Shown one piece after another: positions 5,696 through 42,681 of a stretch of 45,453 bases of DNA. A program made the position numbers and the translations under genes. Under the pieces are notes generated by a model. The model saw nothing but the letters and a program-made list of their open reading frames with translations. It searched no databases and had not been told where the DNA came from. Source of the stretch: Bacillota bacterium (lineage in GTDB: Bacteria; Bacillota; Clostridia; Peptostreptococcales; Anaerovoracaceae); the NCBI GenBank assembly GCA_022767945.1, contig JALENF010000066.1:1-45453 (forward strand), given 5' to 3'. Numbering within the stretch: position 1 is the first letter of the stretch; each line of letters starts with the position of its first letter.

Positions 5696-6862
5696 ATGAT
5701 TTATGTCGGCATTGATATTGCCAAACTTAACCATTTTGCCTCAGCTGTTTCTTCTGATGGCGAAATACTCATTGAGCCGTTTAAGTTCTCTAACGACAGT
5801 GATGGCTTCCATTTGCTGCTCTCTAAACTCGAGTCTTTCGATAAGAGCAGCCTCATCATTGGTCTTGAATCCACGGCACACTACGGTGACAACCTTGTGC
5901 GATACCTTGTTGCTGAGAATTACAAAGTGTGTGTTCTTAATCCCATCAAGACTTCTGTTATGCGTAAAAACAATGTTCGCAAGACGAAGACTGATAAAGT
6001 CGACACTTACATAATTTGCAAAACTCTTATGTTGCAGGATTCCCTTAGATTCGTATCATACTATGATTTGGATCTCATGGACCTTAAATCACTCGGACGC
6101 TTTCGTCAAAAGACCATTAAGCAACGCACTCGCTTGAAAATTCAGCTGACTGCTTATGTTGATGAGGTCTTCCCTGAACTGCAGTATTTCTTCAAATCAG
6201 GCCTGCATCAGAAATCTGTCTATGCGCTTCTCAAAGAAGCTCCAACACCGGAAGCAGTTGCTTCTATGCATATGACTCATCTGGCTCATCTACTCAAGGT
6301 CACTTCCCACGGTCACTTTGATAAAGAGACAGCTCAGCAGTTAAGAGTTCTGGCACAGAAGTCTGTCGGTGCTTGCGACAGTGCTTTATCTATTCAGATA
6401 ACTCATACAATTGCTCAGATTGAGTTATTGAATAATCAGTTAGAGAAAGTTGAAACTGAGATGACTGAAATCATGAAATTCAATGATTCTGTCATCATGA
6501 CTATTCCGGGTATCGGTTACATCAACGGCGGAATAATCCTTGGTGAAATCGGTGATATTCACCGTTTTTCCAGTCCCAACAAGCTGCTTGCATATGCCGG
6601 CTTAGACCCTTCAGTTTATCAGTCCGGAAACTTCCAGGCTAAGAAAACCAGAATGTCCAAGCGTGGATCCAGAGTCCTGAGATATGCACTTGTAAATGCA
6701 GCACACAATGTTGTGAAGAACAATGCTACCTTCAAGGCATACTATGATGCCAAGATGGCAGAAGGCCGAACACATTACAACGCCCTTGGGCATTGTGCCG
6801 GCAAACTCGTCAGAGTCATCTGGAAAATGCTTACTGACGAAGTAGAATTTAACCTCGACTAG
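5696..6862 (+). CDS. IS110-family transposase (DEDD recombinase)
   Basis: A 388-residue protein. The N-terminal RuvC-like DEDD domain begins [16 protein letters not shown] with the first catalytic Asp at residue 6; the motif GLESTAHYG (about 56-64) supplies the acidic Glu. The C-terminal Transposase_20 domain contains [18 protein letters not shown] and [21 protein letters not shown], followed by the conserved [14 protein letters not shown] stretch with the Ser expected to act as nucleophile. Length and domain order match intact family members, and no frameshift or internal stop is present. The start ATG follows RBS GGGAGGT by about 9 bases. It lies antisense to the ABC genes it separates. It is probably functional, with expression expected mainly from the circle-junction promoter. 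Confidence 0.95.
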
Positions 6863-29168: not shown

Positions 29169-29196
29169 AGAAAAAAGAACCGCGTTCAGCGGTTCT
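29169..29196 (-). terminator. Terminator of the nickel gene cluster
   Basis: On the minus strand AGAACCGC-TGAAC-GCGGTTCT is a perfect 8-bp stem followed by a U-rich run. The DUF3842 stop codon lies in its loop. Confidence 0.93.
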
Positions 29197-29602
29197 GGCA
29201 AATTGTCTGAATCATCTTGGCTACCGCATCGTCGACAAGCTCGCCGATGCTCTGGGCATTTACACCCGCAACCAGATTGTCACATCTGTTCATTGGAATA
29301 AGAATGCGCTCCGCTTTGCTTCGCGCAACGGCGAGCGCCATCTTCTCGGTAACCTCGCCAAGAAGGGAATCAGCTATTACAATTCCAAGAGGTCCTATTA
29401 TGATATCAGCTCTGCGGCAGGCTACAACCACCGGGTTTTCACCGGTTGCACCGTCATCAGCTCCGGCTTTCAGCATAGTAGCCGTAGCAGTCGCATTAGT
29501 TCCTACAGCCAGGATCTCCGCATCCGGAAACTGGCTGCGGGCAGCCTCAACTATCTGCTTTCCAAGTCTTCCACCCTGTCCATCTATTACAAGTATCGTC
29601 AT
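29186..29602 (-). CDS. DUF3842 family protein
   Basis: A 138-residue protein, start to stop resembling DUF3842: ILVIDGQGGRLGKQIVE with a Gly-rich nucleotide-binding-like loop, then AVGTNATATATMLKAGAD, RADIIIGPLGIVIADSLLGE and ILIPMNRCDN. There is no membrane segment. It is the last gene of the lar/nik unit, so a role linked to nickel handling or cofactor work is inferred from position only. Its stop lies inside the terminator hairpin. Confidence 0.82.
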   Translation of the reverse strand: MTILVIDGQGGRLGKQIVEAARSQFPDAEILAVGTNATATATMLKAGADDGATGENPVVVACRRADIIIGPLGIVIADSLLGEVTEKMALAVARSKAERILIPMNRCDNLVAGVNAQSIGELVDDAVAKMIQTICQNR

Positions 29603-29617
29603 AAGCTATATTCTCTC

Positions 29618-30352
29618 CTATCTTCTCTGCATGCAAAGAGGCAGCTCCAGGCCGTTTGCCTCCATGAGTTCCTTATCGCTCAGAATTTCCTCAGTAGGGC
29701 CCATTGCGATAATTTGTCCACCCGATAATAACACCGTCGTCTCACAGGTGTCAAGTATCATATCCAGATCATGAGATGCAATAATTTTTAGATGATCAAA
29801 AGAATTCAGAATATTTATCAAAGCCCTCCTGTTTCTGGGATCAAGAGCATTCGAAGGTTCATCCATGAGAATGATGTCCGGCGTCATTGACAGAATTGTC
29901 GCGATAGAAACCAGCTTTTTCTCTCCCCCGGACATCTTATATATGTGCTTGTCTCTCAGATGCTCTATTCCGGTCAGCTTCATTGCATGCTCAACCCGCT
30001 CCTTGACATCAGCTTCGCTTAAGCCGTAGTTTCTCGGAGCAAATGCAATATCCTCATAAGCTGTGGACATGAACAGCTGGCTGTCAGAATCCTGAAAAAC
30101 ATACCCTATTTTTTCACGAATCCTAGCCAGGGTTCTCTTTTCCACGGGAATATCCATGACCTTTATAGAACCGGTGAAATCCAGATTCAGACCTACAAGC
30201 ATCTTCAGCAGGGTAGACTTTCCCACCCCGTTTTCACCTATAAGTCCGATTGAATCATGTTCCTTCAGATGGAGATTGATGTCCTTCAGGACGGTTTTTC
30301 CGCATTCGTAAGCAAAGCTTACATTTTCTATGTCAATATGTATATGACTCAT
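29618..30352 (-). CDS. nikO: ECF nickel/cobalt transporter ATPase
   Basis: A 244-residue ATPase of the CbiO/NikO family. Walker A is GENGVGKST (39-47), the Q-loop lies in YVFQDSDSQLF, the signature is KMSGGEKKLVSIA and Walker B is IILMDEPSNALD. I set the start at 30352, overlapping the NikQ stop by 4 bp (ATGA) with GGGAGGAT just upstream; an upstream ATG in the same frame lacks an RBS. Together with NikQ and NikMN it forms an energy-coupling-factor importer. Nickel is inferred from the lar neighbours and the NikMN type. Confidence 0.9.
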   Translation of the reverse strand: MSHIHIDIENVSFAYECGKTVLKDINLHLKEHDSIGLIGENGVGKSTLLKMLVGLNLDFTGSIKVMDIPVEKRTLARIREKIGYVFQDSDSQLFMSTAYEDIAFAPRNYGLSEADVKERVEHAMKLTGIEHLRDKHIYKMSGGEKKLVSIATILSMTPDIILMDEPSNALDPRNRRALINILNSFDHLKIIASHDLDMILDTCETTVLLSGGQIIAMGPTEEILSDKELMEANGLELPLCMQRR

Positions 30353-31149
30353 TGAAATAATCCTCCCACAACAACAATTACCGGACATACTCTAAGGAAA
30401 ACAAACAGACCTGCGAAAAAGACGAAATAAACAAGGTCGCTCCTCTTAAATCTGTCCTTTTCCCCTATATATGTAAAGTCACCGTTATAGCCGCGAAGTG
30501 TCATGCTCTCATAAACAACTGTTGCCCTGTCCATACTGCGAAGCAGCAGCTGACCCGTCAGAGAACCCCAGACCTTAAAGTGGATTCCCTTCTGTCCGGG
30601 TGCTCTCAGAGAATACGCCGCAGTCATTCGGCCCACCTCGTTCAGGAGAAGAACGATATAACGGTATGTAAGCATAATCTGCGTAACCATTATTTTCGGA
30701 ACGTGCAAAAGTCTCAGAGCGTAGCACAGCTTTTCAATCGACGTCGTTGCAATAAGAAAATACGACGCCAGCACGCTGAAAACACCCTTGAGCATAAGAG
30801 TCACCATGGAAATGACGCCTGCCCTTACCGTTATCCCGTAGAAGGTCACCAGAGTCTTGTCAAAGAAGGGATTAAACAGTCCGATAAAACAGACCAGCGG
30901 CAGCACCACCTTCAGTCTGGCAAAGGTAGACTTCACCGGGATATCCCCCAGAATAAACATGGCAATCGGATATACAGCCATGCCAAGCAGCCCCATGATG
31001 TCATACTTTCCAAAGGATACAACCAGGGCTATATATCCGATTGTCAATAACAGCTTAACCAGCGGATGAACATTGTTCATCCACTGGTCCTGATCTGACA
31101 TATTATCTAATTTATGAATCTCATGAATTGCGTTTTCAATCCTGCTCAT
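30349..31149 (-). CDS. nikQ: ECF transporter transmembrane component
   Basis: A 266-residue CbiQ/NikQ (EcfT) protein with five or six membrane helices and the cytoplasmic coupling motifs of the family: YSLRAPGQK-type Ala-Arg-Ala-Gly equivalent near residue 190 and ESMTLRGYNGDF near residue 220. It couples NikO ATP hydrolysis to the substrate-binding NikMN. It lies 12 bases after nikMN and overlaps nikO by 4 bp. Confidence 0.88.
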   Translation of the reverse strand: MSRIENAIHEIHKLDNMSDQDQWMNNVHPLVKLLLTIGYIALVVSFGKYDIMGLLGMAVYPIAMFILGDIPVKSTFARLKVVLPLVCFIGLFNPFFDKTLVTFYGITVRAGVISMVTLMLKGVFSVLASYFLIATTSIEKLCYALRLLHVPKIMVTQIMLTYRYIVLLLNEVGRMTAAYSLRAPGQKGIHFKVWGSLTGQLLLRSMDRATVVYESMTLRGYNGDFTYIGEKDRFKRSDLVYFVFFAGLFVFLRVCPVIVVVGGLFQ

Positions 31150-31161
31150 AGTCCGACCCGA

Positions 31162-32160
31162 TTACTGCCTTCTCTTTCTCTTGAAAAACTTAAACAGATA
31201 GCATGCTCCGATGCATACAATCACAACGACTCCTCCACCTAAAACCCCGGAGAATGAAGTTCCGGCTGCGGCATCAGACCCCTTGAACGCGTAGTCAGGA
31301 AGCAGGGCTGTCTTGTCCTGAATTCCTGCCGCAGCATCGTATGCACCGCCTTCCGCCTCAAGCTCAGCCGTTCCTGCAACCTTTTCCATGGACCATTCCA
31401 GTCCGTCAGGATTTGATGATGCGAACAGCGACAGACCTCCGCCTATCAAAACTGCCACAACTGCAAGTACAGCAACTGTCTTCTTGAAGGACATGCTGCC
31501 TTCCTTCTTTTCCGCGTCGCCTGAAGCGTACAGAAGCTCAGGTCTTGCCTGGTGAACGAAGCACAGCACCGCTGCTGTAATCATACCTTCAACAGCTCCG
31601 ATTGCCAGGTGAATCGGCTGCATGGTTCCGACGAACACCTTGAAAGGAAGCTCAGTAATACCTGAAGCGAGAGTCTCAACAGTCACGCTGAATGCTCCAA
31701 GCTGAAGTGTCAGCACACATCCCAGAATTGAAGCGAATATAATCTTTCCCTTAGTCATTCCGTTCTTCATAATCGGCTTCCAGATCAGAAGCGCCCCCAT
31801 AAAGCATCCATAAAACGCCATATTCCATATGTTCGCACCGAGAGCCAGCAGCCCACCGTCGGCGAAGAGCAGACATTGTATGAGGAGCACCCCTATCATG
31901 GTCAGGAATCCCGCATAAGGTCCCAGCAGAGCAGACAGCAGCATTCCTCCGCAAAGATGTCCGCTTGAACCAGTTCCCGGAATAGTAAAGTTGATCATCT
32001 GAGTGGCAAAAACAAATGCGCCCATTACTCCCATTACCGGAATCTTCTTAGGATCGTCCTCCTCCCTCACTTTTTTTATTGAATAAGCCGCAGCCGCGCC
32101 GGCCGCAACGTACATTGTACCCGCTACTGCAGGTGCCACTAAAGCATCTGCCATATGCAT
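31162..32160 (-). CDS. nikMN: Fused nickel-binding NikM-NikN component
   Basis: A 332-residue membrane protein. The N-terminus MHMADALVAP carries the invariant N-terminal His2 of CbiM/NikM, part of the metal site, and the first ~200 residues have the CbiM helices (with GTGSSGHLCGGMLL). A C-terminal extension with the motif NPDGLEW, a membrane helix and a basic tail corresponds to the NikN/CbiN-like PDGLE component, so M and N are fused. This architecture is typical of nickel rather than cobalt importers. It lies between larC and nikQ in one operon. Confidence 0.9.
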   Translation of the reverse strand: MHMADALVAPAVAGTMYVAAGAAAAYSIKKVREEDDPKKIPVMGVMGAFVFATQMINFTIPGTGSSGHLCGGMLLSALLGPYAGFLTMIGVLLIQCLLFADGGLLALGANIWNMAFYGCFMGALLIWKPIMKNGMTKGKIIFASILGCVLTLQLGAFSVTVETLASGITELPFKVFVGTMQPIHLAIGAVEGMITAAVLCFVHQARPELLYASGDAEKKEGSMSFKKTVAVLAVVAVLIGGGLSLFASSNPDGLEWSMEKVAGTAELEAEGGAYDAAAGIQDKTALLPDYAFKGSDAAAGTSFSGVLGGGVVVIVCIGACYLFKFFKRKRRQ

Positions 32161-32200: not shown

Positions 32201-33496
32201 CTATTTCTGAATTCTTTCTCTTACTTCCCTGAGTGACAGGCCCTTCTCCTTTGCTATTCTTGCAAGGTCGTCGAACTCTGCCTTTTTCCGGTTAACCCCC
32301 TGTCCGCTGCAGGTCTTCACGCTCACATCGCCCCAGGGTGTTTCCACTTTATCAAAACTTCTTTCCAGCACAATCCTTTCAAATTTATTTATTCTGACTC
32401 CGATAGCGGTGGTGTGCTTAAAGATGAGTTTTGATAGACGGTTTCTGTCGTCAGGTCTGCACATGCAGACAAGCTTTGTTGCCGGGCGGCTCTTCTTCAT
32501 GACGATGGGCTGGCAGTAGACGTCCAGCGCACCCTCTTCCATGAGAACCTCCATGGCAAAACCCATTTCTTCAGCAGTCATATCGTCCAGATTTGTGGAA
32601 ATCTCAATGACATCATCTGCCTTGTCTTCGGTCTCTCCAAGCATTACCCTTACACAGTTAGCGCGTGCAAACTCCTTTGTGCCCATGCCGTATCCGTCTT
32701 TCTCCACGATCATCGCCGGCATAGATCCGAACTCTGAAACGAAGTGCTTAAGCAGAGCCGCACCTGTCGGAGTGCAGAGCTCGCCTTTGATGTCTTCGCT
32801 GTAGATTGGAATTCCCTGCAGAATTCTTGCTGTTGCAGGTGCCGGAACCGGCAGCACTCCATGTGCGCATTTTACAGTTCCGCTTCCTACGTGAACCGGT
32901 GACGCATACACCTTTTCGATTCCGAGCATTTCCATTAGCAGGCAGTTGCCCACAACGTCTGCAACCGCATCCAGCGTTCCCACCTCGTGGAAATGGATGT
33001 GCTCCATGTCCCTGCCGTGAACCTGACATTCGGCCTCTGCAATCAGTCTGTAAACCGCCTTTGCGTTTTCCTTAACTCTGTCGCTTACGTTAAGGTGACT
33101 GATCATGTGCTCGATGTCAGCCATGCCGGAATGGTGGTGATGCTTGTCGCACCCCTCGTGGGTGTGGCCTTCATGGTCATGGCTGTGTGTATGGCCATCA
33201 TGAGAATGGCCGTGCCCGTGATGATGCTCATGGTCATGATTATGTCCATGGTCGTGCTCGTGGTGATGATGGTCGTGTAAGTGCTCATCCTCCTCAACCC
33301 CATGAACATGAACGTGCATATGAGTGCCCATTATCCCGCAGGTTTCCTTAGGCTCAGCGTGAACGTGAACCCCCGGGATTCCCATAGAATTCAGTTTTGA
33401 TACAAATTCCTCCTTATCCGGAAGCAGCTCACACAGTGCTCCCATCAGCATGTCTCCTGCTGCACCCATACTGCAGTCAATATACAAACTTCTCAT
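32201..33496 (-). CDS. larC: Nickel-pincer cofactor cyclometallase LarC
   Basis: A 431-residue LarC, which inserts nickel into the pincer cofactor precursor at the expense of CTP. Starts with MRSLYIDCSMGAAGDMLMGAL. Residues 59-122 are a His/Asp/Gly-rich run with dozens of His, probably nickel-binding or storage. Later family segments include HFHEVGTLDAVADVVGNC and TNLDDMTAEEMGFAMEVLMEEGALDVY. The reading frame is continuous. In Lactobacillus plantarum larC is split into two frames joined by ribosomal frameshifting; here no shift is needed. It lies two bases after larB. Confidence 0.94.
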   Translation of the reverse strand: MRSLYIDCSMGAAGDMLMGALCELLPDKEEFVSKLNSMGIPGVHVHAEPKETCGIMGTHMHVHVHGVEEDEHLHDHHHHEHDHGHNHDHEHHHGHGHSHDGHTHSHDHEGHTHEGCDKHHHHSGMADIEHMISHLNVSDRVKENAKAVYRLIAEAECQVHGRDMEHIHFHEVGTLDAVADVVGNCLLMEMLGIEKVYASPVHVGSGTVKCAHGVLPVPAPATARILQGIPIYSEDIKGELCTPTGAALLKHFVSEFGSMPAMIVEKDGYGMGTKEFARANCVRVMLGETEDKADDVIEISTNLDDMTAEEMGFAMEVLMEEGALDVYCQPIVMKKSRPATKLVCMCRPDDRNRLSKLIFKHTTAIGVRINKFERIVLERSFDKVETPWGDVSVKTCSGQGVNRKKAEFDDLARIAKEKGLSLREVRERIQK

Positions 33497-33498
33497 TC

Positions 33499-34251
33499 CT
33501 ACCCCTCCATATTGTTAATCAAGTGTGCCTGATATCCTGCGCCGAAGCCGTTGTCGATGTTTACTACGCTGACACCGCTTGCGCATGAGTTCAACATGGA
33601 AAGAAGTGCTGTAACGCCGCCGAGGGCTGTACCGTAGCCTACACTTGTTGGAACTGCAATCATGGGACAGTCTGCAAGTCCGCCCACAACAGATGCAAGG
33701 GCACCTTCCATTCCCGCAATGGTAATAATCACTCTTGCGTTCATGATGTCCTCTGTGTGAGCAAGGAGCCTGTGGATTCCGGCAACGCCGACATCGTAAA
33801 GCCTCTTCACGTTGTTTCCGAGAATTTCCGCTGTAAGAGCTGCCTCCTCGGCAACAGGTATGTCGCTGGTTCCTCCCGTGGCAACCAGTATGTATCCCTT
33901 CTGTCTCGGCTTGATCATATCTCCCACAAGTCCTATTCTTCCTTCCTTATAATAGGTAAATGGAACATCCTTGTTAAAATAATCTGCCGCTTCCTGACTC
34001 ATTCTCGTAATAAGAATGGTCTTCTGTCCGCTTTCGTACATCCTGTGAGCAATAATGTCGATCTGCTCAGGCGTCTTGGACGCACCGTATATGATTTCAG
34101 ACGCGCCCTGTCTGAGACCTCTGTGGTGGTCAATCTTGGCTATGTCGATATCCTCAAAAGGAGCAAGCTTCAGCTTCGTAAGAGCCTCGTCTGTACTAAC
34201 CGCTCCATCCTTAACCTGCTGCAGCAGGTCTCTGATATCCTGTTGTTCCAT
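33499..34251 (-). CDS. larB: Nickel-pincer cofactor synthase LarB
   Basis: A 250-residue LarB. The C-terminal two-thirds resemble PurE (AIR carboxylase): ILVATGGTSDIPVAEEAALTAEI, VAGIHRLLAHTEDI and IAGMEGALASVVGGLADCP. LarB carboxylates and hydrolyses nicotinic acid adenine dinucleotide to give pyridinium-3,5-dicarboxylate mononucleotide, the first step of pincer synthesis. The start abuts the larE stop and the stop lies two bases before larC. Confidence 0.93.
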   Translation of the reverse strand: MEQQDIRDLLQQVKDGAVSTDEALTKLKLAPFEDIDIAKIDHHRGLRQGASEIIYGASKTPEQIDIIAHRMYESGQKTILITRMSQEAADYFNKDVPFTYYKEGRIGLVGDMIKPRQKGYILVATGGTSDIPVAEEAALTAEILGNNVKRLYDVGVAGIHRLLAHTEDIMNARVIITIAGMEGALASVVGGLADCPMIAVPTSVGYGTALGGVTALLSMLNSCASGVSVVNIDNGFGAGYQAHLINNMEG

Positions 34252-34995
34252 CTATCTTTCCTCCATATCAAGCATGATAACTTCAAATAATGGCTTTAGT
34301 TTTTCTGTTATATCCTTTCGCATTTCAACGGCTCCGGCCATCTGAGAACCGGGAAGCTGGATTCTTGCCCCTCTGCCGTACAGCCTTACGCGAAAATCAC
34401 TGAAACCGAGAGATGCGAGTTCTGTCTCCGCCTTTTCCACTCTTGCGAGCTTTTCATCTGTAATTTCCTCGCCTGTGGGAACTCTCGTCGCAAGGCAGGC
34501 ATAGCTCGGCTTATCCCATGTGAACAGACCGGCTTCTCTGGAAAGCTCTCTTACGTCGGCCTTGGTCAGTCCGCACATACGAAGGGGCGAAAGAACCTTC
34601 ATTTCCTTAAGTGCTCTCATTCCCGGACGGTCACCTTCTTCGTCGCTGGCATTTGTTCCGTCCATTATGTACTCGTATCCGGCCTCCGCGGCTGTCTTTG
34701 CGATGAGCCCGAAGATATTGTTCTTGCAGTGATAGCATCTGTCGGCCGGGTTTTTTCTCACCTCTTCACTTGACAGTGCGTCACAGTGAAGCACATCAAA
34801 ACCCACTCCCACGTATTCAGCCAGTCGCTTTGCATCCTCCAGCTCAAACTCCGGCTGGAACTGGCTTTTTACGAAAATCGCCTTTACATCTGCCCCATAC
34901 CTGTGTGCAGCATACAGTAAAAACGATGAGTCCACGCCGCCCGAAAAACCAAGTGCAACCTTGGGATATTTCGTAAAGAATTCCTGCAGGTTCAT
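34252..34995 (-). CDS. larE: Pyridinium-3,5-biscarboxylate sulfurtransferase LarE
   Basis: A 247-residue PP-loop ATPase with SGGVDSS (18-24), which adenylates and thiolates the pincer precursor. Cysteines lie at 87 and 90 (DRCYHCKNN) and 167 (PSYACLATR). Some LarE proteins sacrifice a single Cys as sulfur donor, while others use three Cys to bind an iron-sulfur cluster for catalytic turnover; three suitable Cys here make the latter possible. I prefer the ATG at 34995: the one at 35001 is only two bases from GGGAGGT, whereas 34995 is well spaced. It is the first gene of the nickel operon and follows an attenuator-like leader. Confidence 0.92.
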   Translation of the reverse strand: MNLQEFFTKYPKVALGFSGGVDSSFLLYAAHRYGADVKAIFVKSQFQPEFELEDAKRLAEYVGVGFDVLHCDALSSEEVRKNPADRCYHCKNNIFGLIAKTAAEAGYEYIMDGTNASDEEGDRPGMRALKEMKVLSPLRMCGLTKADVRELSREAGLFTWDKPSYACLATRVPTGEEITDEKLARVEKAETELASLGFSDFRVRLYGRGARIQLPGSQMAGAVEMRKDITEKLKPLFEVIMLDMEER

Positions 34996-35028
34996 TTCCA
35001 TGTACCTCCCGTCTCTGGTCGTTTTGAT

Positions 35029-35137
35029 AAAACAAAAAACAAAAAACCATAGTCAGCCTCTCCTTCTGGAGTCTGCTGCCTGTGGTTTTCTTCTGAAAAC
35101 TTATGACTCTTCTTAAGTCATTTATGTTCATATTATA
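35029..35137 (-). promoter_or_regulatory. larE leader with promoter and attenuator-like structures
   Basis: On the minus strand a TATAAT lies at plus 35132-35137 (weak -35). The leader holds three stems: ATGACT/AGTCAT (35103-35121), GTTTTC-TTCT-GAAAAC (35085-35100) and a long imperfect hairpin from AAAACCA to TGGTTTT (35043-35089). The last is followed by a U-rich run (plus A run 35029-35046), i.e. an intrinsic terminator ahead of larE. The second and third stems share bases and cannot form together. A metal- or cofactor-responsive switch is possible, but I could not match it to a known riboswitch. Confidence 0.6.
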
Positions 35138-35173: not shown

Positions 35174-35662
35174 CTACTTGTCCTTTTTTTCCTTCGCTAT
35201 TTTTCTCAGCTCTTCAAGAAGCTGTCTGTCCAGCACCTGGCGCGTCTCGTTGAGTTCTTCTCTCGAACCTATGTCGGTCATCTGAAGAATCCATATGCGA
35301 CCCTTGAATACAGATGATTCCAGCCTGTTCTTAACGGCCTGGTTTATTTCGCTTACCTTTGCTCCTGCATTAATCAGGTAAATTCTTGCAATTATGCCTG
35401 TTCTGTTAGCTTTTTTAATCTCTATGTAATTCTCTATCTGTCCAAACCTGTGAATAGCCTCTCTGATTTCCTTGGCTATCATCTCGCTGATAATCTGGTC
35501 GCTGCTTTTTCTTAAAATAAGGATGAAAGCAGTTGCTGCGATGATTCCGAGAGGAATAGCTATCTCGTCTCCGAATGCATCAGCTGTACCGAAGTACATG
35601 ATCAGACCGAGCGGCACACTCAGCCAGCTCGCCATGCTCAGCTTCATCAGTGTTTTCTCCAT
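35174..35662 (-). CDS. Small membrane protein of unknown function
   Basis: A 162-residue protein. Two N-terminal hydrophobic helices (about 8-27 and 34-51) are followed by a soluble, charged domain with alternating strands and helices: GIIARIYLINAGAKVSEINQAVKNRL, then RIWILQMTDIG and a Lys/Glu-rich C-terminal helix. I do not recognise a family. It has its own consensus promoter and lies between the larE leader and deoC. Confidence 0.7.
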   Translation of the reverse strand: MEKTLMKLSMASWLSVPLGLIMYFGTADAFGDEIAIPLGIIAATAFILILRKSSDQIISEMIAKEIREAIHRFGQIENYIEIKKANRTGIIARIYLINAGAKVSEINQAVKNRLESSVFKGRIWILQMTDIGSREELNETRQVLDRQLLEELRKIAKEKKDK

Positions 35663-38827: not shown

Positions 38828-39895
38828 ATGAAAAAACTGATTGATAAACTGGAAAAGAACCGGAATTTAAGCAAAGAAGAACTGACGATGCTGGTCGCTG
38901 ACCAGAGTGCAGAAAACCTGCAGTATCTGAACGAAAGAGCTGTCGCTGTAAGACGTTCTGTCTTTGGTAACAGCGTATACATCAGAGGACTCATCGAGTT
39001 TACAAACTACTGCAAAAATGACTGCTATTACTGCGGCCTTCGCTGCAGCAACAGAAAGGCAGACAGATACAGACTCACACCTAAACAGATTCTGCAGTGC
39101 TGCCGCAAAGGACATGAACTGGGATTTCGAACCTTCGTGCTTCAGGGCGGAGAAGATCCCTACTGGAATGACGAGAGGCTGGAGGTTTTGATCGGGGAGA
39201 TAAAGAGAGAGCACCCGGACTGTGCACTCACCCTTTCTATTGGAGAGCGTGAGAGGAAGAGCTACCAGCGGCTTTACGACGCGGGAGCGGACAGATTTCT
39301 GCTAAGACATGAGACAGCAAATGCGGATCACTACGGTATGCTTCACCCGGCGGAAATGTCTCATGCAAACAGGTTGAGATGCCTGAAGGATCTGAAGGAA
39401 ATCGGTTTTCAGACGGGATGCGGTTTTATGGTGGGAAGCCCCGGGCAGACCACAGAGACACTGGTCGAGGATCTCATGTTCATCAGGGAGTTCGAACCTG
39501 CCATGGTGGGAATCGGACCTTTTATTCCGGCCGGCAACACACCTTTCAGCGGCGAGAAGACGGGATCCGTGGAGCTGACTCTGCGGCTGCTGTCCATCAT
39601 CCGCCTGATGAATCCCAAGGTTCTGCTGCCTGCAACCACAGCTCTGGGAACGGCGAAGGAGGATGGTCGCGCCATGGGCATCAAAGCCGGTGCAAATGTA
39701 ATAATGCCGAATCTTTCTCCGACAGACGTAAGGGAAAAGTACCGCATTTACGACAACAAGCTGGCGACAGGTGTCGAAGCAGCGGAGGGATTGAAAGAAT
39801 TAGAGTTAGAAATGGGAAAAATCGGGTATAAAATAGAGATAACCAGAGGGGATTCCCCCTTATGTATAAACACACACAAGAAACAAACAAACTAA
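38828..39895 (+). CDS. hydE: [FeFe]-hydrogenase maturase HydE (radical SAM)
   Basis: A 355-residue radical SAM protein. The SAM-cluster motif CKNDCYYC gives Cys62, Cys66 and Cys69 inside the HydE-like FTNYCKNDCYYCGLRC. The TIM-barrel continues with FVLQGGEDPYW and GFMVGSPGQTTE. HydE works on the precursor that yields the dithiomethylamine-bridged diiron centre of [FeFe] hydrogenase. It is the first gene of hydE-hydG-hydF. The hydrogenase itself is not in the window. Confidence 0.95.
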   Translation: MKKLIDKLEKNRNLSKEELTMLVADQSAENLQYLNERAVAVRRSVFGNSVYIRGLIEFTNYCKNDCYYCGLRCSNRKADRYRLTPKQILQCCRKGHELGFRTFVLQGGEDPYWNDERLEVLIGEIKREHPDCALTLSIGERERKSYQRLYDAGADRFLLRHETANADHYGMLHPAEMSHANRLRCLKDLKEIGFQTGCGFMVGSPGQTTETLVEDLMFIREFEPAMVGIGPFIPAGNTPFSGEKTGSVELTLRLLSIIRLMNPKVLLPATTALGTAKEDGRAMGIKAGANVIMPNLSPTDVREKYRIYDNKLATGVEAAEGLKELELEMGKIGYKIEITRGDSPLCINTHKKQTN

Positions 39896-39923
39896 CAGAT
39901 TTTTCAGATTGGAGATGGTAAAA

Positions 39924-41354
39924 ATGTATGATCCTAAATCACTTAAGGCGGAGGAGTTCATCTGTCACGAGGAGATACTGGATACACTGAAGTATGCAGA
40001 TGAAAACAAAGATAACAAGGAGCTGATACGTCAGATTCTGGACAAGGCGGCTTTGACGAAGGGCATCAGCCACAGAGAGGCGTCAGTGCTTCTGGCATGT
40101 GAGGACAAGAAGGTCGAGGAGGAAATCTTTGCTCTTGCCAAGAGAATTAAGGACGAGTTTTACGGGAACAGAATTGTTTTGTTCGCGCCTCTTTACCTTT
40201 CAAACTACTGTGTAAACGGCTGCGTTTACTGTCCTTATCACCACCAGAACAAGCACATCGCCCGTAAAAAGCTTTCTCAGGAGGATGTAAGGCGTGAGGT
40301 AATCGCGCTTCAGGACATGGGTCACAAGAGACTTGCTCTTGAGGCCGGCGAAGACCCTGTCAACAATCCGATTGAATATATTCTTGAATGCATTAAGACG
40401 GTTTACTCGATCAACCACAAAAACGGCGCAATCAGACGTGTAAACGTAAACATCGCCGCAACAACAGTTGAGGAGTACAAGATGCTTAAGGATGCGGGAA
40501 TCGGTACATATATTCATTTCCAGGAGACTTATCACAAGGAAGGCTACGAAAAGCTTCATCCTACAGGACCTAAGCACAACTACGCATGGCATACAGAGGC
40601 CATGGACAGAGCTATGGAAGCGGGAATCGACGATGTCGGTCTGGGAGTTTTGTTCGGTCTTGATATGTACAGATATGAGCTTGCAGGTCTGCTGATGCAC
40701 GCAGAACACCTGGAGGCGGCACACGGCGTCGGACCTCACACTATCAGCGTTCCTAGAGTACGTGCGGCTGAAGATATCAACCCTGATGAATTTGACGGCG
40801 GTGTTGACGGCGGAATTACTGACGACCTGTTCGCAAAGATTATCGCTATCATCAGAATTGCTGTTCCTTATACAGGAATGATCATGTCCACAAGAGAAAA
40901 CAAGCAGATGCGTGAACGCGCACTTCAACTTGGAATCTCCCAGGTGAGCGGTGCTTCCAGAACAAGTGTCGGCGGATACGACGAACCTGAACCTGAGGAG
41001 GATAACTCAGCTCAGTTCGAGGTTGAAGACAGAAGAACTCTTGACGAGGTTATCAGGTGGCTTATCGATATGGATTTCATTCCAAGCTTCTGTACAGCCT
41101 GCTACAGAGAAGGCCGTACGGGCGACAGATTCATGGATCTGTGCAAGCATAAGCAGATTCTGAACTGCTGCCATCCGAATGCTCTGATGACGCTGAAGGA
41201 ATATCTGGTTGACTACGCGAGCCCCCAGACGAGAGTGGCCGGGGAGGCTTTGATAGAGAGAGAGCTTGGCAACATTCCTAAGGAAAAAGTACGCAGGATT
41301 GCGGAAGAGTACATCAAGGAGATCGAACATGGCAAGAGAGATTTCAGATTCTAG
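39924..41354 (+). CDS. hydG: [FeFe]-hydrogenase maturase HydG (radical SAM tyrosine lyase)
   Basis: A 476-residue protein. The SAM cluster is bound by Cys96, Cys100 and Cys103 (NYCVNGCVYC). The C-terminal CTACYREGRTG starts the CX2CX22C motif with Cys390, Cys393 and Cys416 for the auxiliary cluster on which the Fe(CO)2(CN) synthon is built. HydG splits tyrosine to CO and cyanide. I chose the start at 39924, 9 bases after GGAG; the ATG at 39909 precedes that site. Its 3' end overlaps hydF by 26 bp. Confidence 0.96.
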   Translation: MYDPKSLKAEEFICHEEILDTLKYADENKDNKELIRQILDKAALTKGISHREASVLLACEDKKVEEEIFALAKRIKDEFYGNRIVLFAPLYLSNYCVNGCVYCPYHHQNKHIARKKLSQEDVRREVIALQDMGHKRLALEAGEDPVNNPIEYILECIKTVYSINHKNGAIRRVNVNIAATTVEEYKMLKDAGIGTYIHFQETYHKEGYEKLHPTGPKHNYAWHTEAMDRAMEAGIDDVGLGVLFGLDMYRYELAGLLMHAEHLEAAHGVGPHTISVPRVRAAEDINPDEFDGGVDGGITDDLFAKIIAIIRIAVPYTGMIMSTRENKQMRERALQLGISQVSGASRTSVGGYDEPEPEEDNSAQFEVEDRRTLDEVIRWLIDMDFIPSFCTACYREGRTGDRFMDLCKHKQILNCCHPNALMTLKEYLVDYASPQTRVAGEALIERELGNIPKEKVRRIAEEYIKEIEHGKRDFRF

Positions 41355-42681
41355 AAAGCCGGACGGCAGTCAGGCTCCGGGCGTTTCGCCAAACGGCGGT
41401 CAGGCTCCGGGCGGCAGCGACCTGAACAGCACTCCAAGCGGCGGACGCGTTCACGTGTCCTTCTTCGGCAGACGTAACGCCGGCAAGTCCAGCCTGGTCA
41501 ATGCGGTCACCGGTCAAAACCTGTCCATTGTCTCCGACACTCCGGGAACCACCACGGATCCTGTCTCCAAGGCCATGGAGCTGCTTCCTCTCGGACCCGT
41601 TGTAATTACAGATACGGCCGGTCTGGATGATGAAGGTCTGGTCGGAGAAATGCGCGTGCAGAAGGCTATGATCATTCTGCGAAAAACAGACATTGCCGTG
41701 CTGGTGGTTGACGGATCATCGGCGGACTTCGGCTCGTCTGATGCGACCGATGGATCCGGCGGAAAATCCTTCCACCTGGCTCCTGACGACGAGCAGCTGG
41801 TCGAGCTTTTCCGCTCAAGAAAGATGCCTTTCATTGTCGCCTTTAACAAAACCGACAAGCTGGCGGCTTCTGCGGCTCAGGCTCTGAACAAGGCCTTTGA
41901 AAACGCTGAATACCCAGTTATCCCTGTCAGCGCTGCTGACGGCCGAGGCATAACAGAACTTAAGGAAAAAATCGCGGCAATGGGAAAGGAAATCGCCGTA
42001 GATAAAAAGATAATCGCGGACAGACTGAATCCGCAGGATGTTGTAATCCTTGTGACGCCAATAGATTCATCTGCTCCTAAGGGCAGAATGATTCTGCCGC
42101 AGGTTCAGGCCATAAGAGACATTCTTGACGGTCATGCAGTATGTATGGTCACTCAGGTTGAGGAGCTTCAGATGTGCCTGGACGCTCTGCGAGAGCCCCC
42201 TGCCCTTGTGGTTACCGACAGCCAGGCGTTCTCTACAGTTAAGGAAATCGTTCCCGAATCAGTTAAGCTTACATCCTTCTCCATTCTGTTTGCTAGACTG
42301 AAGGGAATTCTGAATACAGCAGTTGAGGGTGCGGAGCATCTCAGCAGGCTGAACGACGGCGATAAGGTTTTGATATCTGAGGGCTGCACACACCACAGGC
42401 AGTGTGAAGACATCGGAACGGTGAAGCTGCCGAACTGGATTCAGAAGTACACGGGCAAAACTCTCAACTTCAGCTTTACCAGCGGCGGTCAGTTCCCTGA
42501 GGCCGAGGAGCTGAAGCAGTACGCACTTGTGGTCCACTGTGGAGGCTGTATGTTAAACGAAAGAGAAATGCTTTCCAGAATGCATGTTGCGGAGGAATCC
42601 GGTGTTGCATTCACCAACTACGGAACTCTCATCGCCCACATAAACGGAATTCTTGAGAGAAGTCTGGAGTTTCTGAAATAA
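41329..42681 (+). CDS. hydF: [FeFe]-hydrogenase maturase GTPase HydF, with low-complexity inserts
   Basis: A 450-residue protein. The P-loop FFGRRNAGKSS (about 45-55) and SDTPGTTTDP and TDTAGLDD (G2/G3) belong to the GTPase domain. The C-terminal iron-sulfur region has CTHHRQC and HCGGC, the ligands on which the [2Fe] precursor is assembled. Two features are unusual: an N-terminal Gly/Ser/Pro-rich extension with the repeated block GGQAPG or GSQAPG (residues 13-38), and a Gly/Ser/Asp-rich insert after the fourth strand (about residues 132-148). I set the start at 41329 because AAGGAG lies 8 bases upstream; a longer frame starts inside hydG. Translation is probably coupled to hydG. Confidence 0.94.
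   Translation: MAREISDSRKPDGSQAPGVSPNGGQAPGGSDLNSTPSGGRVHVSFFGRRNAGKSSLVNAVTGQNLSIVSDTPGTTTDPVSKAMELLPLGPVVITDTAGLDDEGLVGEMRVQKAMIILRKTDIAVLVVDGSSADFGSSDATDGSGGKSFHLAPDDEQLVELFRSRKMPFIVAFNKTDKLAASAAQALNKAFENAEYPVIPVSAADGRGITELKEKIAAMGKEIAVDKKIIADRLNPQDVVILVTPIDSSAPKGRMILPQVQAIRDILDGHAVCMVTQVEELQMCLDALREPPALVVTDSQAFSTVKEIVPESVKLTSFSILFARLKGILNTAVEGAEHLSRLNDGDKVLISEGCTHHRQCEDIGTVKLPNWIQKYTGKTLNFSFTSGGQFPEAEELKQYALVVHCGGCMLNEREMLSRMHVAEESGVAFTNYGTLIAHINGILERSLEFLK

Follow-up and report, generated by a model that had tools for sequence, protein, structure and literature searches.

A conserved tandem-hairpin leader, apparently an undescribed RNA switch, before nickel-uptake and nickel-cofactor genes of many Bacillota

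The leader in front of the nickel operon in the window (the whole stretch of 45,453 nucleotides that was analysed) is one copy of a widespread element and, as judged from sequence, apparently represents a conserved and so far undescribed RNA switch before nickel-uptake and nickel-cofactor genes in many Bacillota. The element consists of tandem hairpins with the loops ANGAA and AGAA, each closed by a C-G pair, on covarying stems. We consider it the probable reading, held with some reserve, that a trans-acting factor binds these loops at nickel scarcity and prevents termination. The original prediction, which described an attenuator-like leader for this operon, was right in its observation but understated it, as it did not include that P1 belongs to the element, that the loops of P1 and P2 are alike and that this arrangement is conserved.

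The leader in the window and the operon behind it

The leader lies on the minus strand from 35137 to 35035 and is followed by the start of larE at 35001 behind the sequence GGGAGG. It opens with the -10 promoter element TATAAT (35132..35137), recognized in the sequence and accompanied by a weak -35, and continues with two hairpins: P1 (35103..35121), a member of the conserved module with the stem AUGACUU/GAGUCAU and the pentaloop AAGAA, and P2 (35085..35100; GUUUUC-AGAA-GAAAAC), which is seen in the sequence as well as in the covariance-model match. The 3' arm of P2 doubles as the 5' foot of an intrinsic terminator (about 35041..35091) with a long imperfect stem that ends in UUUUUU, and the apical hairpin of this terminator (35060..35071; CUCC-AGAA-GGAG) holds a third copy of the loop; all of these parts are on the minus strand. 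The fold of the leader has an energy of -28.2 kcal/mol compared to a shuffled mean of -17.0 (z -4.1), the terminator by itself reaches -20.7 kcal/mol (z -5.3), and no shuffle of either the leader or the terminator alone attains the native folding energy. Sequence and folding thus bear out the terminator that had been proposed between the promoter and larE. Consensus scanners detected neither the promoter nor the terminator of the leader, owing to the weak -35 and the imperfections of the stem.

P2 and the terminator are mutually exclusive because they have the sequence GAAAAC (35090-35085) in common. The minimum-energy fold of the full leader is the terminator, and according to the folding P2 is present in a shorter, incomplete transcript and becomes displaced once the 3' arm of the terminator has been made. 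The two folds therefore alternate with transcript length, in agreement with the exclusion between a GTTTTC/GAAAAC hairpin and the terminator put forward in the original prediction. Also its statement about the leader peptide holds: no peptide with a regulatory codon run is found in the leader sequence, the only start being an ATG within P1 that is directly followed by ACT TAA.

The operon behind the leader, likewise on the minus strand, begins with larE (34252..35001; NCBIfam TIGR00268 above cut-off), larB (33499..34251; NF033503 above cut-off) and larC (32201..33496; TIGR00299 and NF052512 above cut-off). These are followed by the genes for a NikM/CbiM-type ECF S component with a fused PDGLE domain (31162..32160; Pfam PF01891 and PF13190), a NikQ/CbiQ-type ECF T component (30349..31149; PF02361 and TIGR02454) and a NikO/CbiO-type ECF ATPase (29618..30388; ECF ATPase models score best in NCBIfam, without reaching their cut-offs), and the final gene encodes a DUF3842 protein (29186..29602; PF12953, E 2e-52). 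The transporter that follows larC differs within the genus of the window, some species having NikMQO and others a NikABCDE-like ABC system, yet all the same the leader is kept. The genus possesses larB, larC and larE, and a match to PF09861 (LarA N-terminal) is present only in G011 among 13 genus genomes, several of which are >96% complete; the user of the nickel-pincer cofactor is therefore either not apparent or a LarA homologue that has diverged beyond reach of the profile.

Three further observations concern the surroundings of the operon. Directly upstream of the leader, a 162-aa protein with no Pfam match is encoded at 35174-35662 of the window (minus strand), and it takes this position in four species of the genus. 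HydE-, HydG- and HydF-like genes for [FeFe] hydrogenase maturation were recognized by eye near the nickel operon on the opposite strand (window 38828-42681, plus strand), as was an IS110-type transposase-like reading frame of 388 aa at window 5696-6862 (plus strand).

Conservation of the element and the genes under it

To follow the leader through related bacteria, LarE relatives were taken from 99 related genomes and the region in front of each larE was read in coding orientation. All 11 genus members with a larE match (11/11) carry small hairpins at this place, which vary in their stems and mostly keep ANGAA/AGAA loops closed by C-G, and several members of other genera in the family likewise show such hairpins upstream of larE. 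Several leaders (e.g. L005, L006, L010) possess two hairpin pairs, the second of which overlaps the terminator. From a separate collection with named records, comprising 80 larE loci, the tandem pair upstream of larE or of its preceding small gene pair was found in Mediterraneibacter, Acidaminococcus, Lachnospiraceae, Oscillospiraceae and others, and many other larE loci among those 80 do not have it. The element was absent from the LarA-family loci that were examined.

An alignment of 17 pentaloop-tetraloop modules has 94.7% of its cells paired and a covariation score of 0.98 compared to a shuffled mean of 0.19, and for 55 modules the values are 94.9%, 1.00 and 0.22, with the paired-cell percentages being inflated because the modules were partly chosen for their ability to pair. 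The stems show 236 two-sided changes versus 70 in shuffles, two-sided changes occur in 8 of the 10 pairs of the module alignments, and slid registers are all far worse (best covariation score 0.26 versus 1.00). On these covarying stems the loop residues A, G, A and A and the closing pairs show no or almost no variation, and the distance between the loops is 13–18 nt (14–16 in 49/55 modules), independent of stem length. A search for tandem hairpins in 3.28 Mb of strand sequence from the fetched loci gave 89 matches, part of which are counted more than once as the loci overlap; the controls gave 0 matches both for reversed and for dinucleotide-permuted sequence. An earlier subset of 1.98 Mb had all of its matches (40/40) upstream of larE or its preceding gene pair. 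The match counts and their empty background do not hinge on the choice of modules able to pair, and the comparisons with slid registers and shuffles remain valid as well. A stem-free pattern of two CANGAAG loops was discarded as too loose, its controls being almost as frequent as its matches. Covariation upstream of larE homologues, named as a check when the leader was first described, thus turned out to be strong, and the stems are conserved.

These data also bear on another explanation, namely a plain attenuator, or a terminator that works constitutively, whose upstream hairpins are due to chance and which needs no special factor. Many intrinsic terminators have A/U feet and the overlap with P2 in the window comprises merely about six A/U-rich base pairs, which would fit such a leader, but identical loops and covarying stems recur before nickel genes in many families and the controls have zero matches. 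The comparative data refute a chance feature, and we give this explanation hardly any credence.

We applied the covariance models R1 and R2 at three levels, to 391 genomes from the class, 399 from the phylum and 298 from the family, and the regulon in the window's own genome was searched by covariance model alone. The leader is matched at 35086-35119 with E values for the whole genome of 1.8e-7 (R1) and 1.2e-5 (R2), which are non-independent as the window sequence itself was among those used to build both models. A second match in this genome (G000:C40:12829) was taken as chance, as it sits within a coding gene for a helix-turn-helix, GntR/MocR-like protein (by eye). Matches within coding genes were also found in general, mostly with weaker scores, and give a gauge of the false-positive level.

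Intergenic matches together with a terminator were found before NikM/CbiM genes (L246, L250, L253, L274), before NikB or NikA-like genes (L232, L263, L273, L277) and before an FmdE-like gene at the head of a nikBC operon (L239). The element also precedes ECF ATPases (L231, L233, L235, L236, L238, L240, L243), an ECF S component of unassigned substrate (L196, L197, L198, L200, L204), larC (L202), DUF3842 itself (L199, L244) and a pair of membrane genes found before larE as well (L119, L016, L161, L212, L268-L270), as well as TrmO-like, flavin-reductase-like and methyltransferase genes. As a counter-point, the TrmO-like, flavin reductase and ECF S targets are not obviously related to nickel; several of the TrmO-like, flavin-reductase-like and methyltransferase genes head operons with NikA-like proteins or the ECF S component. 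The permease of L281 is above the NCBIfam cut-off for the nickel ABC permease NF045470, and for the binding proteins and the permease of L296 nickel models are the best or near-best match, below cut-off. Before larE the element thus occurs in many Clostridia, and in other Bacillota families it stands in front of NikMNQO, NikABCDE-like, ECF-type and larC genes. From this distribution the element is the common, predicted switch of a regulon for nickel uptake and nickel cofactor in many Bacillota, joining nickel uptake and the synthesis of the nickel-pincer cofactor.

Two of the target families deserve mention in their own right. The ECF S component (PF12822) is a recurrent target, found in L271 and L309 in addition to the five loci above, and it may have a nickel complex or the precursor of a cofactor as its substrate. 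The proteins of the membrane pair (starting with MACFLVP... and MTLL...) are small and conserved, precede larE in several species and have no match in Pfam or NCBIfam; possibly they are a new component of nickel or cofactor transport.

Proposed antitermination and candidate factors

A T-run is located just downstream of 43/44 terminator-proximal modules, and in at least 31 of the 44 the minimum fold joins bases of the module to the 3' arm of the terminator; for several leaders of which only a short fragment had been analysed a longer fold also pairs the module with this arm. The cleanest cases are L253, L281 and L299, where the 3' arm is complementary to the entire first hairpin including its loop and the second hairpin forms the terminator apex. 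As this complementarity to the first hairpin is found in most leaders, the tandem hairpins would be the antiterminator, and a binder of the loops would therefore switch the genes on. Since these are genes for nickel uptake and cofactor synthesis, the binder is expected to be active when nickel is low.

We propose that the nascent transcript forms two adjacent hairpins with the loops ANGAA and AGAA, and that a trans-acting factor would bind both loops and keep the second hairpin closed in the window, or the first hairpin in most other species. In the bound state the terminator would be blocked and larE-larB-larC-NikMQO-DUF3842 transcribed, and in the unbound state the terminator would prevail. 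The factor would most likely be active at low nickel or at low nickel-pincer cofactor, and the element probably tells these bacteria when to take up nickel.

The main alternative is that the two loops themselves bind a small ligand and so hold the antiterminator, as in a direct riboswitch of the guanidine-II kind. Minimal two-hairpin riboswitches do exist, guanidine-II binding its ligand via tandem hairpins, and the element is very compact, with conserved loops and no recognized RNA-binding partner; moreover DUF3842 resembles a nucleotide-binding enzyme fold and might produce a ligand or use it up. Against this, the ligand would switch the genes on, an effect of the wrong sign for uptake and synthesis genes if the ligand were nickel or the pincer cofactor. 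Loop 2 (AGAA) lacks a self-complementary dinucleotide that could serve loop-loop pairing, and the module alignments show no conserved junction or internal loop, only the loops and closing C-G pairs being conserved at a near-fixed loop spacing. Furthermore, Rfam gave no family at the gathering threshold in the window and no relevant one at E 5 in 13 related loci, hence no riboswitch match. We regard direct ligand binding as rather unlikely. Loop-only conservation, near-fixed spacing and the wrong sign fit better to a trans-acting factor active at low nickel, and that a binder would turn the genes on argues against an RNA directly sensing nickel or the pincer cofactor. Of the nickel-responsive RNA suggested in the original prediction the link to nickel is thus supported, whereas the direct nickel or pincer aptamer is not, and a riboswitch for another ligand is the less likely alternative.

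For the trans-acting factor, DUF3842 is the best candidate as sensor or regulator, a choice made by gene linkage. It is present in 32/35 element-positive compared to 10/30 element-negative genomes (Fisher p 1e-6, kinship ignored), or 49/52 compared to 14/37 if the first genome set is included, and in at least one of the element-negative genomes, G764, a degenerate element separates DUF3842 from an ECF S component. Some genomes possess DUF3842 with no detected element, and it is missing from three element-positive assemblies. In about 20 loci with varied downstream genes the gene immediately precedes the element, mostly at <150 nt; in two loci it immediately follows the element, and in some members of the window's genus it belongs to the controlled operon. 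This linkage supports a role of DUF3842 in the same process and points to this family of unknown function as a nickel-homeostasis protein.

DUF3842 proteins are Rossmann-like and acidic (median pI 5.3) with one invariant cysteine. No RNA-binding signature was found in them, and a sequence search against solved structures gave no match. The predicted fold resembles generic Rossmann-like proteins (UbiX-type, TM about 0.5), which is uninformative on RNA binding. It is possible, and we suggest it only tentatively from the sequence data, that nickel-free DUF3842 binds the ANGAA/AGAA loops and antiterminates the nickel genes, sensing nickel or a nickel cofactor. If true, DUF3842 would represent a new protein family of RNA-binding regulators that respond to nickel, and would take the place of NikR in a large part of the Bacillota.

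Independent of the RNA element, DUF3842 directly precedes a CooT-family gene in G831 (L306; PF10133 scan) and stands before a CooT-family-like gene in G933 (L305; by eye). The nickel enzyme CO dehydrogenase has CooT as an accessory protein.

Comparison with known systems

In the open-access literature no description matching a nickel-pincer riboswitch, DUF3842 or nickel antitermination was found, and an attenuator survey from 2010 includes ABC-transporter leaders but none for nickel in its main text. With a terminator and an antiterminator that exclude each other and are conserved by covariation, the element has what generally defines an attenuator. The NiCo (czcD) riboswitch is also an RNA leader tied to nickel genes, but it is a four-way-junction aptamer before metal export genes that is switched on by metal, whereas the element controls genes for uptake and cofactor synthesis and has no Rfam match, confirming that it is unlike the NiCo aptamer as stated before. 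Guanidine-II (mini-ykkC) shares the two tandem hairpins with short loops; the element differs in its loops, which are not a pair of ACGR tetraloops, in the genes under its control and in matching no Rfam family. The iron-responsive element and IRP1 are comparable by analogy alone, in that a metal-free factor binds a hairpin loop; this system is eukaryotic, its effects are on translation and mRNA stability, and we claim no homology.

NikR is a DNA-binding repressor of nikABCDE and nikMNQO, and its regulation resembles that proposed here in the type of target genes and in the regulator gene often lying beside its target. In contrast, NikR is missing from 51/53 element-bearing genomes. A comparative study from 2009 found that less than half of the organisms possessing NikABCDE also have NikR, and inferred from this a NikR-independent regulation (PMC2667541), to which the element would be a concrete and testable answer in a large group of anaerobic, often gut-dwelling bacteria.

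The closest likeness is to the ANTAR target RNAs, which are tandem hairpins with hexanucleotide loops carrying A1 and G4 (PMC3369931), and one could regard the element as a divergent target of this kind bound by an ANTAR-domain protein. The eut, nas and ami leaders, recognized by EutV, NasR and AmiR, share with it the architecture of two small hairpins, an A and a G conserved in the loops, a short linker and the overlap of antiterminator and terminator (PMC3369931, PMC8934654). However, among the 55 modules the loops are mostly ANGAA and AGAA, thus 5 and 4 nt instead of 6, do not follow the A1-G4 rule and belong to a nickel regulon. The window's own genome has one ANTAR gene, but ANTAR proteins are absent from 21/35 element-positive genomes and from seven near-complete element-carrying relatives, and are no commoner with the element (14/35) than in element-negative genomes (16/30). 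Because of this distribution we reject ANTAR proteins as the binding factor, and we consider a divergent ANTAR target very improbable. The element works like dual-hairpin antitermination while lacking two defining features of ANTAR targets, and it would be a second system of this type besides ANTAR, having its own loop code.
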